Source: Ramlibacter sp. (GTDB taxonomy: Bacteria; Pseudomonadota; Gammaproteobacteria; Burkholderiales; Burkholderiaceae_C). Taken from it: DNA of 10,990 bases. The translations under genes were made by a program, and so were the position numbers. Location of the stretch: NCBI GenBank assembly GCA_021156245.1, contig JAJNBO010000084.1, forward strand, positions 1 to 10,990, in the 5' to 3' direction. Under the pieces are notes generated by a model that was not told the DNA's origin, made no database searches, and saw nothing but the letters and a program-made list of their open reading frames with translations. Shown here piece by piece: positions 7,138 to 10,990 of this stretch; position 1 is the first letter of the stretch; each line of letters starts with the position of its first letter.

Positions 7138-8244
7138 TCAGCTCCACATCTCCTGCGCCGTTTCGATGACCAGGCGCAGCTTGTTGCGCTGGTCTTCCAC
7201 CGCGATGTTGTTGCCGTGGACGGTGCTGGAGAAGCCGCACTGGGGCGACAGCGCCAGTTGCTCCATGGGGGCGTACTTCGCGGCCTCCTCGATGCGCCGC
7301 TTGAGCGCATCCTTGTGCTCGAGCTGGCCGAACTTGGTGGTCACCAGGCCCAGCACCACGGTCTTGCCCTTGGGCAGGAAGCGCAGCGGGCGGAAGTCGC
7401 CGGAACGCTCGTCGTCGTACTCCATGAAGTACGCGTCGATGTCCATTTCCTTCAGCAACGCCTCGGCCACGGGCTCGTAGTTGCCTGCAGCGGCATGCGT
7501 GCTCTTGAAGTTGCCGCGGCACAGGTGCATGCCCAGCAGCATGCCTTGCGGCTTCCGCGCGACCACCTTGTTGATGAACTTCGCGTAGCGGTGCGGCAGT
7601 TCGTTGGGATCGTCGCCGCGCTGGCGCGCCGCTTCCCGCATCTTCTCGTCGCACAGGTAGGCGAGGTTGGTGTCGTCCATCTGCACGTAGCGGCAGCCCG
7701 CTTCGTACAGCGAGCGCAGTTCGTCGCCGTAGGCCTTGGCCACGTCGTCGTAGAAGGCCGGTTCGAGCTCGGGATATGCGTCCTTGCTGATGCCGGCGCG
7801 ACCGCCGCGGAAGTGCAGCATGGTGGGCGAGGGGATCGTCACCTTGGGCGTGAAGCCCGCGCCGACTTGCGACTTCAGGTATTCGAAGTCGGCCTTCTGG
7901 ATGTCCTTGGCATGGCGCACCTTGTCGATGACGCGGATGACGGGGGGCGCCAGTTCTTCGGTGCCGTCGGGCTTGCGGATGGTGACCGGGATGTCCGTCT
8001 TCACGCCACCGAGCTGCTCGAGGAAGTCGATGTGGAAGTAGGTGCGGCGGAACTCGCCGTCCGTGATGCTCTTCAGGCCCACGTCCTGCTGGAACTTGAC
8101 GATCTCGGAGATGGCCTTGTCCTCGACTTCGCGCAGCTGCTCGGACGTGATGTCGCCGCGGGCCTTCTGGGCACGGGCCTCGAGCAGGTATTGCGGGCGC
8201 AGGAAGCTGCCGACGTGGTCGTAGCGGGCGGGGAGTTGCATCAT
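7138..8244 (-). CDS. MetE-like cobalamin-independent methionine synthase family protein
   Basis: The 368-residue protein corresponds to the catalytic C-terminal half of MetE, a zinc enzyme that transfers a methyl group to a thiol such as homocysteine. The zinc site is complete: H240 and C242 in GMHLCRGNF, E275 in YFMEYDDER, and C336 in LSPQCGFSS. Other signatures are the start YDHVGSFLRP, ITDGEFRR (60-67), IPSPTM (137-142) and YVQMDDTNLAYL. It lacks the N-terminal MetE domain that holds methyl-folate, as do YxjG/YxjH and the folate-independent core-MetE proteins, so the methyl donor is unknown. No DUF1852 (MesX) partner gene lies nearby. Two adjacent ATG codons (8244 and 8241) could start it; AGAGAGA lies about ten bases upstream. 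The gene begins only 32 bases after the truncated vanB, so its place in the van operon may be recent or artefactual. Confidence 0.88.
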   Translation of the reverse strand: MMQLPARYDHVGSFLRPQYLLEARAQKARGDITSEQLREVEDKAISEIVKFQQDVGLKSITDGEFRRTYFHIDFLEQLGGVKTDIPVTIRKPDGTEELAPPVIRVIDKVRHAKDIQKADFEYLKSQVGAGFTPKVTIPSPTMLHFRGGRAGISKDAYPELEPAFYDDVAKAYGDELRSLYEAGCRYVQMDDTNLAYLCDEKMREAARQRGDDPNELPHRYAKFINKVVARKPQGMLLGMHLCRGNFKSTHAAAGNYEPVAEALLKEMDIDAYFMEYDDERSGDFRPLRFLPKGKTVVLGLVTTKFGQLEHKDALKRRIEEAAKYAPMEQLALSPQCGFSSTVHGNNIAVEDQRNKLRLVIETAQEMWS

Positions 8245-8276
8245 GGTTGTGTGTCTCTCTCAGGAACGTGTCAATT

Positions 8277-9047
8277 CTAGAACGTCATCCCCGCGAAGGC
8301 GGGAGCCGGCACTTCGTAGCTCGCGCCGCTGCTGGCGATCTTCACCGTGAACGGCTGGTCGCCCGTGGTGTCCTGCGTCGCCGCGCCGAAGTACTCGACA
8401 TGCAACTGGTCCTTGCCCCAGCCCCAGCCTTCCGCGGACTTCACGACCCAGTCGATGAAGCCGGTGGGGCCGCACACATAGACGTGGGTGCCGGGCTCGG
8501 GTTTCGCCAGCACCCTGTCGAGTGCGAGTTTCTGCGACGGCGGGCCATCGTCGAAGTGGTATTTCACGTTGCGGGCAAAGGCCGAGGCGGCGATCTCGTC
8601 GCGAAAAGCCGTTCGCTCGGCCGAGCGGGTGCAGTAGTGCAGCGTGAAGTCCGCCTCGATGGCGGACAACCGCTGCGCCATGGCCAGCAGCGGCGTGACG
8701 CCGATGCCGCCCGCGAACAGCAGCGTGCGCTTCGCATGCACGAGGGGGAAGTGGTTGCGCGGCTCGCTGATCAGGAGCGTGTCGCCCTCGTTCAGCGCGT
8801 CGTGCATGGAGATGGAACCGCCGCGGGAAGCGGGGTCCCGCAGCACCGCGATGCGGTAGCGATGGTTCTCCGTCGCGTCATTGCACAACGAATACTGGCG
8901 CGTCACGCCACCCGGCACCTGCACGTCGACGTGGGAGCCGGCGCTGAAGCCGGGGAGGGCGCTGCCATCGGCCTTGCCCAGTTCGAAGCTGGTGATACCC
9001 AGGGCCTCCTGCTTCTTGCGCAGGACCTTCACTGCAATCTGCGTCAT
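8277..9047 (-). CDS. vanB: Vanillate O-demethylase reductase, truncated: lacks the 2Fe-2S domain
   Basis: VanB passes electrons from NAD(P)H through FMN and a plant-type 2Fe-2S centre to VanA. The first two domains are intact over 256 residues: the flavin-binding barrel with RQYSLCN (50-56) and the nucleotide domain with GGIGVTP (113-119), HYCTRS, VYVCGPTGF (189-197) and HVEYFGA. Family members run to about 315 residues with a ferredoxin domain carrying a CxxxxCxxC cluster. Here the frame stops at the first strands of that domain (FTVKIASSGASYEVPA) and finishes with PAFAGMTF, encoded by a palindromic repeat-like sequence. About 60 residues and all cluster cysteines are missing, and the missing part is nowhere else in the window. 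The ATG at 9047 starts four bases after the vanA stop. Unless another ferredoxin substitutes, the product should not support VanA; it may be treated as a pseudogene or as an assembly break. Confidence 0.85.
   Translation of the reverse strand: MTQIAVKVLRKKQEALGITSFELGKADGSALPGFSAGSHVDVQVPGGVTRQYSLCNDATENHRYRIAVLRDPASRGGSISMHDALNEGDTLLISEPRNHFPLVHAKRTLLFAGGIGVTPLLAMAQRLSAIEADFTLHYCTRSAERTAFRDEIAASAFARNVKYHFDDGPPSQKLALDRVLAKPEPGTHVYVCGPTGFIDWVVKSAEGWGWGKDQLHVEYFGAATQDTTGDQPFTVKIASSGASYEVPAPAFAGMTF
8283..8304. repeat. Short palindromic repeat-like element at the vanB 3' end
   Basis: The core CCCCGCGAAGGCGGG (8289-8303), preceded by CGTCAT, resembles the dispersed intergenic palindromes of many proteobacteria that read roughly GTCAT(T/C)CCCGCGAAGGCGGGA. 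It contains CCCGC / GCGGG around a GAAG loop. Read on the - strand it gives PAFAGMT, which replaces the expected VanB sequence in frame. Only one copy is seen in this window, so its repetitive nature is known from other genomes, not shown here. Confidence 0.6.
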
Positions 9048-9051
9048 GGCG

Positions 9052-10095
9052 TCAGGCGGCCAGCTTCTGCGGCTGTTCCGCCGCAATGAGCTTGTCGATG
9101 ATGCGCCGTGCCTGCACGCCGCCCGCGTCGATGTTCAGCAGCAGCAATTTGCGGGTCGGGTGCGCGAGCAGGTTGCGCTGCTGCGCTTCAAGCACTTCCG
9201 TGTCTTCGGAGAAGACCTTCGCCTGCCCATCGCGGATCTGCGCGGTGAGGTTGCGGTCCTTCGGGTTGAAGTTGCGCGCCATCCCCCAGAAGTACCACAT
9301 GGTCGTGTCGGTCTCGGGCGTGAGGAAGTCCACCACGATCGAGTACACCTTGTCCTTGGGGTCGGCGTTGTAGCCGCCCTTGCCGGCATGGGCCACGCCC
9401 ACTTCGATCATCACGTGGCTGGGCGGGACGAAGTGGCACACCTGCCAGCGGTCCACCGGCACGTCGTCGGCCAGGTTGTTGCCGCGCAGGTTGGCGCGCC
9501 AGAAAGGCGGCGGCATCACGTTGTCCATGAAGCGGCTGGTGACCACGGTCTCGCCCACGGTCTTGGTGGTGACCGGCGTCTCGTCGATCTCCTTCTGGCC
9601 GATGCTGGTGGCGTGCACGTAGGTCTCGTGCGTCAGGTCCATCAGGTTGTCCACCATCAGGCGGTAGTCGCACTTCACGTGGTACAGGCCGCCGCCATAG
9701 GCCCAGTCGGGGTTGTCCGCCCACTCCAGGTGGTGGATCTTCGCGACGTCCGCCTGCGCCGCGTCACCGGGCCACACCCAGACGAAGCCGTACTTCTCCA
9801 CGACCGGGTACGCCTTGATCTTCGGGAAGCCGCCGACGCGCTGGCCGGGCATGGAGACGGTCTTGCCGTCACAGCCCATCACCAGGCCGTGGTAGCCGCA
9901 GACCAGGTTGCCCTCGCAGACGGAGCCCAGCGAGAGCTGCGCGCCACGGTGGGGGCAGAAGTCCTCGACGGCCGCGACCTTGCCGTCGGCGCCGCGGTAG
10001 AAGGCGATCTTCTCGTTGCAGATGGTGCGGCCGAGGGGCTTCGCGTCGATTTCGTCAGGGGTGCAGGCGACGTACCAGGCGTTCTTGGGAAACAT
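9052..10095 (-). CDS. vanA: Vanillate O-demethylase oxygenase subunit (Rieske non-haem iron)
   Basis: VanA removes the methyl group of vanillate, giving protocatechuate and formaldehyde, with electrons from VanB. The 347-residue protein follows Pseudomonas VanA closely as I recall it, from MFPKNAWYVACTPDEI through the end. The N-terminal Rieske domain binds the 2Fe-2S cluster with C47-x-H49 and C66-x2-H69 (FCPHRGA, VCGYHG). The catalytic domain has N150-x2-D153-x2-H156-x4-H161: D153 should bridge to the neighbouring Rieske centre, H156 and H161 bind iron, and D298 in SEDTEV is the likely third ligand. SIGQKEIDE and NIDAGGVQARR are typical of VanA rather than of dicamba or toluenesulfonate oxygenases. 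The ATG at 10095 fits the family start; an ATG at 10164 lies in the operator and would add 23 unlikely residues. vanB follows after four bases. Expression is probably controlled by the divergent GntR regulator. Confidence 0.95.
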   Translation of the reverse strand: MFPKNAWYVACTPDEIDAKPLGRTICNEKIAFYRGADGKVAAVEDFCPHRGAQLSLGSVCEGNLVCGYHGLVMGCDGKTVSMPGQRVGGFPKIKAYPVVEKYGFVWVWPGDAAQADVAKIHHLEWADNPDWAYGGGLYHVKCDYRLMVDNLMDLTHETYVHATSIGQKEIDETPVTTKTVGETVVTSRFMDNVMPPPFWRANLRGNNLADDVPVDRWQVCHFVPPSHVMIEVGVAHAGKGGYNADPKDKVYSIVVDFLTPETDTTMWYFWGMARNFNPKDRNLTAQIRDGQAKVFSEDTEVLEAQQRNLLAHPTRKLLLLNIDAGGVQARRIIDKLIAAEQPQKLAA

Positions 10096-10243: not shown

Positions 10244-10990
10244 ATGTATACAGAACGCGATGAGGCGGGAGGCTCCCAGTCGGTCAAGGCGCAGCTGAAA
10301 CTGCGCGAAATGATCCTGGCCGGCGAGCTGCCCGGGGGCGCCCGCATCGCCGAACTCGCCATCGTCGAGCGGCTGGGCGTCTCGCGCACGCCGATCCGCG
10401 CGGCGCTGATGCGGCTGGAGCAGGAGGGGCTGCTCGATGCCTTGCCCAATGGCGGCTACGCGGTCCGCACGTTCTCCGAGCGCGACGTCTCGGATGCCAT
10501 CGAGCTGCGCGGCACCGTCGAGGGCCTGGCGGCGCGTCTCGCGGCGGAACGCGGCGTCGCGGAGGGAGTGCTTGCCGAAGCCAGCGCCTGCCTCGATGAA
10601 GTGGACGAGGTGCTGCAACAGCCCGCGCTCGACGACGAGGCCTTCACCCGCTACGTGCGCCTGAACCAGCGCTTCCACAACCTCCTGGCGGACATGGCGG
10701 GCAGCAGCGTGCTCGCGCGTGAGCTGGAGCGGGTGGTGAACCTGCCGTTCGCGTCGCCCTCGGGCTTCGTGGTGGTGCAGGCGGACACGCCCCGGGCCCG
10801 CGACATGCTGATCGTGGCGCAGGACCAGCACCGGCAGGTGATCGACGCCATCGAGCGGCGCGAGGGCGCGCGCGCCGAGGCGATCATGCGCGAGCACTCC
10901 CGCATCGCCCAGCGCAACCTGCGCGAGGCGGTGCAGGGGCAGCACCAGCACCGCATGCCCAGCGTGCGCCTGATCCGGCAGCGCGGCTGA
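10244..10990 (+). CDS. GntR family (FCD) transcriptional regulator, VanR-like
   Basis: The 248-residue DNA-binding protein has an N-terminal winged helix of GntR type (about 13-77; RIAELAIVERLGVSRTPIR at 34-52 contains the recognition helix, and NGGYAVR the wing). The C-terminal all-helical FCD effector domain (about 82-228) carries likely metal ligands N141, H145, H196 and H218 in RLNQRFHN, DQHRQVID and MREHSR. FCD regulators usually sense small carboxylates. Its position divergent from vanA, with one identical palindrome on each side of the spacer, suggests a vanillate-responsive repressor like VanR, released by vanillate. This is inferred from context; the sequence itself does not name the ligand. 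The ATG at 10244 is the only suitable start; there is no ribosome site, so leaderless translation is possible. The stop codon is the last three bases of the window, so the gene is complete. Confidence 0.88.
   Translation: MYTERDEAGGSQSVKAQLKLREMILAGELPGGARIAELAIVERLGVSRTPIRAALMRLEQEGLLDALPNGGYAVRTFSERDVSDAIELRGTVEGLAARLAAERGVAEGVLAEASACLDEVDEVLQQPALDDEAFTRYVRLNQRFHNLLADMAGSSVLARELERVVNLPFASPSGFVVVQADTPRARDMLIVAQDQHRQVIDAIERREGARAEAIMREHSRIAQRNLREAVQGQHQHRMPSVRLIRQRG
10245..10252. promoter_or_regulatory. Operator-like palindrome TGTATACA, regulator side
   Basis: This is the second exact copy of the palindrome, 89 bases centre to centre from the first. It overlaps the ATG of the regulator gene (codons 1-3), so binding would block transcription initiation or early elongation. 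That suggests negative autoregulation together with control of vanA. Confidence 0.6.

Follow-up and report, generated by a model that had tools for sequence, protein, structure and literature searches.

The vanB gene of the Ramlibacter genome analysed here, which codes for the probable reductase subunit of a vanillate O-demethylase, runs into a copy of a dispersed palindromic repeat (REP) and stops there without the part coding for the 2Fe-2S ferredoxin domain. We think it likely that the gene was broken recently by a deletion extending from a REP in the downstream intergenic gap into vanB, and the case is most likely one of ordinary gene breakage and not of a new kind of enzyme. The titles and abstract openings of the literature found do not name a VanB broken at a REP. 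The window, by which we mean the whole stretch of 10,990 bases that was analysed, corresponds to contig C516; the draft genome to which it belongs is 69% complete and totals 3,312,702 bases over 556 contigs.

The truncated reductase gene and its neighbours

The truncated vanB lies at 8277..9047 on the reverse strand and has 256 codons and a stop, as established by translation, homology and Pfam matches; the translated protein of 256 aa ends in YEVPAPAFAGMTF, directly followed by the stop. Its native part, residues 1–248 (8304..9047, reverse strand), was delimited by tblastn and by comparison of C-terminal ends. It comprises the flavin and NAD part and the start of the Fer2 domain and matches full-length homologues up to YEVPA at residue 248. 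At the nucleotide level, blastn identity with ten relatives begins at 8305–8323. The replacement tail PAFAGMTF and the stop (8277..8303, reverse strand) are coded by the REP and its left edge, as seen from the translation and the comparison of REP copies, with CCCCGCGAAGGCGGG sitting at 8289–8303. Pfam (E up to 0.001) matches NAD-binding families in this protein, including NAD_binding_1 (PF00175) with 30.1 bits at a cut-off of 22, and finds no Fer2, and there is no cysteine beyond residue 192. The preliminary description had read the frame in the same way, as a normal VanB up to YEVPA which then turns into PAFAGMTF, stops and lacks the ferredoxin cysteines, and the translation and the comparison with homologues bear this reading out.

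The adjoining vanA (9052..10095, reverse strand), coding for the Rieske oxygenase subunit of 347 aa with VanA_C (PF19112) and Rieske (PF00355) domains, is apparently intact, as had been stated before. Its best match among solved structures is the dicamba O-demethylase DdmC, and vanillate is, judging from homology, the probable substrate of VanAB. A GntR/FCD regulator at 10244..10990 on the forward strand (PF00392 and PF07729) is a possible VanR, a name that we assume from its position. On the opposite side of vanB, a MetE-like methyltransferase gene of the PRK06520 family (7138..8244, reverse strand; NF005085, 444.1 bits, cut-off 313) has its start codon 32 bases (8245–8276) from the vanB stop, at just the distance that the preliminary description had given for the start of the next gene. 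The leader of this gene together with the left flank of the REP (8245..8282, reverse strand) forms the remainder of the gap between vanB and the MetE-like gene; the leader resembles that of some relatives, and the blastn match of one homologous locus (L043 of G020) extends to 8280.

In 33 of the 41 distinct homologous places described below, the start of a MetE-like gene of the PRK06520 family, recognised by its N-terminal motif, lies at most 225 nt downstream of vanB. This neighbour may be linked to the use of the methoxy carbon. The genome also encodes, at G000:C26:10152-10733, a class III extradiol dioxygenase beta subunit that is protocatechuate 4,5-dioxygenase-like (NF009903), so ring cleavage after vanillate demethylation seems to be present.

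Intact homologues and spread of the truncated allele

The closest relative among the genomes compared is G045 (JAJTCN010000060.1, the MAG Ramlibacter sp. C_No_T20_B_bin.97), which has the order vanR–vanA–vanB–MetE-like–gdhA in common with the window and is about 89–92% identical to it in nucleotides from gdhA to the regulator. Its VanB is full length (318 aa), 94% identical to the window VanB across residues 1–249, with Fer2 (PF00111) at residues 236–310 (54.6 bits) and cysteines at positions 267, 272, 275, 284, 305 and 306. It aligns with phthalate dioxygenase reductase (2pia) across residues 6–318, and through this alignment the flavin part of the window VanB may be assigned by homology. Cysteines 267, 272, 275 and 305 are aligned with 2pia cysteines that we take to bind the cluster. 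Measured against G045, vanB in the window is 70 native codons short and has lost its original stop, and the remainder of the gap is missing as well.

The search for VanB homologues covered 80 genomes, the window's own included, and gave a match in 68. Thirty loci were taken from the best matches and, together with a second set of 27 loci and after subtraction of the window locus and 15 duplicate places, left 41 distinct places, which represent best matches only. The ferredoxin end with its cysteines is in frame in 40 of them. The junction between REP and vanB, searched with up to three mismatches, occurs in one of 60 Ramlibacter genomes, that of the window, and no second strain with the truncated allele was seen among these 60. 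With 40 of 41 places in frame, one frameshifted, and the junction confined to a single genome, no conserved short form was found. A natural, conserved VanB of 256 residues, which according to the preliminary description would have argued against a truncation, was looked for in the 41 places and the 60 genomes of the genus and is absent, and we regard it as ruled out.

The one frameshifted place belongs to the complete genome of Ramlibacter terrae (CP053418; L107, 1942-3940), where vanA and vanB each span more than one frame, which may reflect either decay or sequencing errors.

With the 3′ end of G045 vanB and the gap as query, the lost part of vanB was not found elsewhere in the 69%-complete draft among the 40 of 176 candidates scored; within these 40, the window's own vanB was the sole match as vanB sequence, the others lying in the gap part or being short. 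A 27-base match on contig C112 to the G045 vanB end and gap falls in an open frame with many 4Fe-4S-type cysteine motifs and is, by eye, unrelated. It is possible that a copy of the vanB end resides in the missing part of the genome. VanB has four matches in the window's genome, and besides its own the two among the matches listed are 29% and 33% identical; no other close VanB is among the matches listed.

The repeat at the joint

The element at 8283..8303 (forward strand) is a CGTC-tagged REP that reads CGTC-ATCCCCGC-GAAG-GCGGG and, on comparison with other copies, is cut at its inner side. Its head faces the MetE-like gene and it is complete through GCGGG, while the similarity may reach 8307 through the bases AGCC. 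The core CCCGCGAAGGCGGG, with one mismatch allowed, occurs 192 times in the 3.31-Mb genome, where its reversal occurs 4 times. When a longer REP pattern is used and two mismatches are allowed, there are 156 occurrences versus 0 for the control, the window copy, which diverges from this pattern at its inner end, not being counted among the 156. Exact matches to the 21-base REP elsewhere in the genome number at least 17 among the candidates scored, and the consensus CGTCATYCCCGCGAAGGCGGGRATCCAGGGC was obtained from 46 genome stretches selected by the core CCCGCGNAGGCGGG, which contain 47 distinct copies, counting that of the window. The earlier suggestion that the tail is coded by a widely dispersed palindrome, for which a count of copies had been proposed, is confirmed by these numbers. 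Across 60 Ramlibacter genomes, many of them drafts, the count of CGTC-type REPs ranges from 0 to 397 per genome.

The part of PMC3733652 that defines the CGTC-1 class describes a CGTC head, an 8-bp stem starting with AT, a 4-base loop and a CCA tail. The window family agrees with this description in the CGTC head, the arm beginning with AT and the GAAG loop (8283–8298 in the window), and in its many copies, often arranged in inverted pairs. The window copy departs from the class, as defined in that part of the source, in two respects. Its stem has five Watson-Crick pairs, one T–G pair and two mismatches, leaving three of eight positions unpaired in the Watson-Crick sense, whereas other copies of the family have fully paired stems; and where the end of its second arm and the CCA tail would be, it has sequence that fits vanB, other copies mostly continuing as ATCCAGGG and the window copy as AGCCGGCAC.

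The bases AGCC at 8304–8307 can be assigned either to the REP or to vanB. This continuation occurs in none of the 35 REP copies with a perfect head and is present in a copy on contig C394 whose head is changed; the vanB of relatives reads, for example, GGCCGGCAC or GGCGGGCAC at the position of the joint. Because AGCC fits both sides, the putative deletion joint between REP and vanB (8304..8308) would share about 3–5 bases at most, and its exact base is ambiguous.

REPs lying inside open frames, or overlapping the ends of coding regions, are already described in the relevant part of PMC3733652. The window REP is like the latter in supplying the last codons of a frame and unlike those so described in that the frame is shorter by about 70 codons and an entire cofactor domain is gone.

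Mobilisation of the REP by a single-copy Y1 transposase was considered and rejected, as no link between the two was found. A Y1 match is present in 29 of the 30 same-genus genomes searched, including that of the window, where the protein scores 74 bits against NF047646, under the cut-off of 80. Ten Y1-positive genomes (G004, G005, G006, G007, G010, G012, G017, G023, G026 and G028) have no REP match, in G018 (75% complete) 35 REP matches are present without any Y1, and none of the 20 Y1 transposase regions examined, of 2.6–4.9 kb each, contains the REP core. That Y1 is common with or without REPs and has no REP core nearby fits the published view, as given in the part of PMC3733652 concerned with CGTC REPs, that these elements have no dedicated transposase.

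Origin of the junction

In two of the 41 places vanB is intact and the gap separating it from the MetE-like gene contains paired REPs of this family. In L018 of G047 (the same place as L095) the REP cores lie 11 and 45 nt past the vanB stop. In L027 of G015, where the pair is intact, they lie 35 and 94 nt past it; about 34 nt separate the MetE-like start from the beginning of the first REP, which has the orientation of the window's REP and nearly its position. By analogy, the G015 gap would serve well as a model of the pre-deletion locus. The gap of G045, the closest relative compared, has no family REP, so an ancestral REP can be deduced only from more distant relatives, whose REPs may be independent insertions. 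The G045 gap has (L039 13805-13905) a different, longer inverted repeat, which resembles stretches at other places in the window's genome. In 11 relatives 230–395 bp lie between vanB codon 248 and the MetE-like start, in the window about 60 bp.

We propose that VanB was still complete in the ancestor, at about 318 aa, and that the gap before the MetE-like gene contained a CGTC-type REP, which probably formed one half of an inverted pair. The deletion would have had its ends at the inner side of this gap REP and near vanB codon 248 and would have taken away some 70 codons of vanB together with its stop codon and the remainder of the gap. From there the frame would have continued for eight residues through the REP and its edge before reaching a stop. 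The mechanism may have been hairpin-associated slippage, or end joining with few shared bases.

The preliminary description spoke of repeat-associated recombination, and of this the repeat at the joint stands, but recombination between two REPs finds no support, as no REP was detected in the 3′ part of vanB in any of the 41 places with the patterns used and the joint shares only about 3–5 bases. A real deletion by homologous or slipped recombination between two direct REPs, one of them formerly within vanB, would overlap with the explanation given above and would leave exactly one REP at the joint, and REPs are abundant and, according to the part of PMC3733652 cited, can occupy genes. We nevertheless consider it improbable, since it requires an otherwise unseen REP insertion in vanB, while one gap REP and a few shared bases suffice without a second REP.

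A local artefact, in which a REP inserted at vanB codon 248 and a direct gap REP had been merged with collapse of the stretch between them, or in which a chimeric molecule had been assembled, has to be weighed more seriously, although we judge it unlikely. The draft is fragmented and 69% complete, the repeat has its many exact copies elsewhere, and REPs in open frames are on record in the part of PMC3733652 mentioned. A local collapse of about 170–335 bp, as derived from the gap sizes of relatives, is possible, and if it were true VanB might hold an in-frame REP-coded insert and retain its ferredoxin domain. Both flanks, however, are syntenic with the relatives compared, which contradicts a false join of distant loci; no REP is seen in the vanB 3′ part of the homologues; and a false bridge would still require reads linking the REP to vanB codon 248.

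Furthermore, a control gene shows that at least one gene–REP junction of the draft is real. In this gene, L068, whose product was recognised by eye as a probable enoyl-CoA hydratase, the frame passes into a REP pair beyond GEGRHGAS and the protein acquires a tail coded by the repeat; in the separately assembled G045 the homologue (L151, G045:C78) passes into a REP pair from that very residue and has such a tail too. In G027 and G015 the homologous protein ends in GEGRHGKF, with no REP core in the stretch, the G047 homologue, cut by the contig end, likewise has no REP core, and that of G014 has a broken frame and is uninformative. The L068 case lengthens a protein and is no proof of the vanB deletion.

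Functional state and age of the allele

According to PMC2358900, a C-terminal 2Fe-2S domain sets the FNRC-type reductases apart. The window VanB shares the flavin and NAD part with the FNRC-type reductases of type I Rieske systems, such as 2pia and full VanB, and its gene adjoins that of a Rieske oxygenase of the VanA family. Unlike 2pia and full VanB, it is without the C-terminal 2Fe-2S domain and, as far as its sequence goes, is a remnant of an FNRC-type Rieske oxygenase reductase and not a complete member. In FNRC-type reductases it is through the 2Fe-2S domain that the flavin delivers electrons, one at a time, to the Rieske centre of the oxygenase. With this domain lost, VanAB would be expected to be inactive in cells carrying the truncated allele, and VanB function has probably been abolished.

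Changes on the window branch, polarised with up to eight outgroup loci (L040–L047), number 30 synonymous and 11 nonsynonymous in vanB, 36 and 8 in vanA, 29 and 8 in the regulator, 36 and 9 in the MetE-like gene, and 45 and 12 in gdhA. Nonsynonymous changes make up a larger share in vanB than in any of the other four genes, though not significantly so: the comparison with the four neighbours pooled (146 synonymous, 37 nonsynonymous) gives a Fisher p of 0.40, which with 11 nonsynonymous vanB changes is a weak test, and that of the window branch with the G045 branch of vanB gives p=0.75. Relaxed selection in the remaining part of vanB was thus not detected from the window-branch changes in the five genes, at low power, which suggests that the loss of vanB is recent or harmless. 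The absence of detectable relaxation is expected if the loss is recent, and would, on so weak a test, also fit a still-working protein.

Such a protein would be a short reductase with flavin (FMN) and NAD parts only that passes electrons to a separate 2Fe-2S ferredoxin in a three-component system. The flavin and NAD part is indeed intact and not significantly relaxed, and the free-standing ferredoxin gene that the preliminary description had proposed to look for is present, coding for 102 aa with Fer2 at G000:C517:5591-5896; it could in principle substitute for the lost domain. Within the window, however, no ferredoxin gene stands beside the cluster, the free one being on another contig, and nothing ties it to VanA. 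It is matched at 53–62% identity in eight of the 12 other same-genus genomes searched (G045 not among them), one match lying within a 423-aa open frame and one containing a stop, so it does not have the appearance of a compensating gain. A naturally short VanB occurs in none of the 41 places, and the remnant closes with a repeat-coded tail that follows the start of the lost domain. We therefore hold a working short reductase to be very improbable.

As to a two-component Rieske system caught just after its reductase lost the fused ferredoxin and now using the free one, which if true would mean that a repeat had turned a two-component system into a three-component one in nature, we give it hardly any credence. 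Among the three options offered by the preliminary description, the evidence speaks most for recent loss at a dispersed repeat; the working short reductase is unsupported and the join of distant loci is at odds with the synteny.

Implications

The truncated vanB leaves the established knowledge of VanB and of REPs unchanged. If the deletion is real, the locus would be a clean case in which an entire cofactor domain was deleted and a dispersed palindrome marks where the deletion ended. For the organism, the vanAB annotation in this Ramlibacter genome gives no basis for assuming vanillate use, and, as a protocatechuate 4,5-dioxygenase beta-like subunit is present, the loss of vanB may interrupt an otherwise working route.
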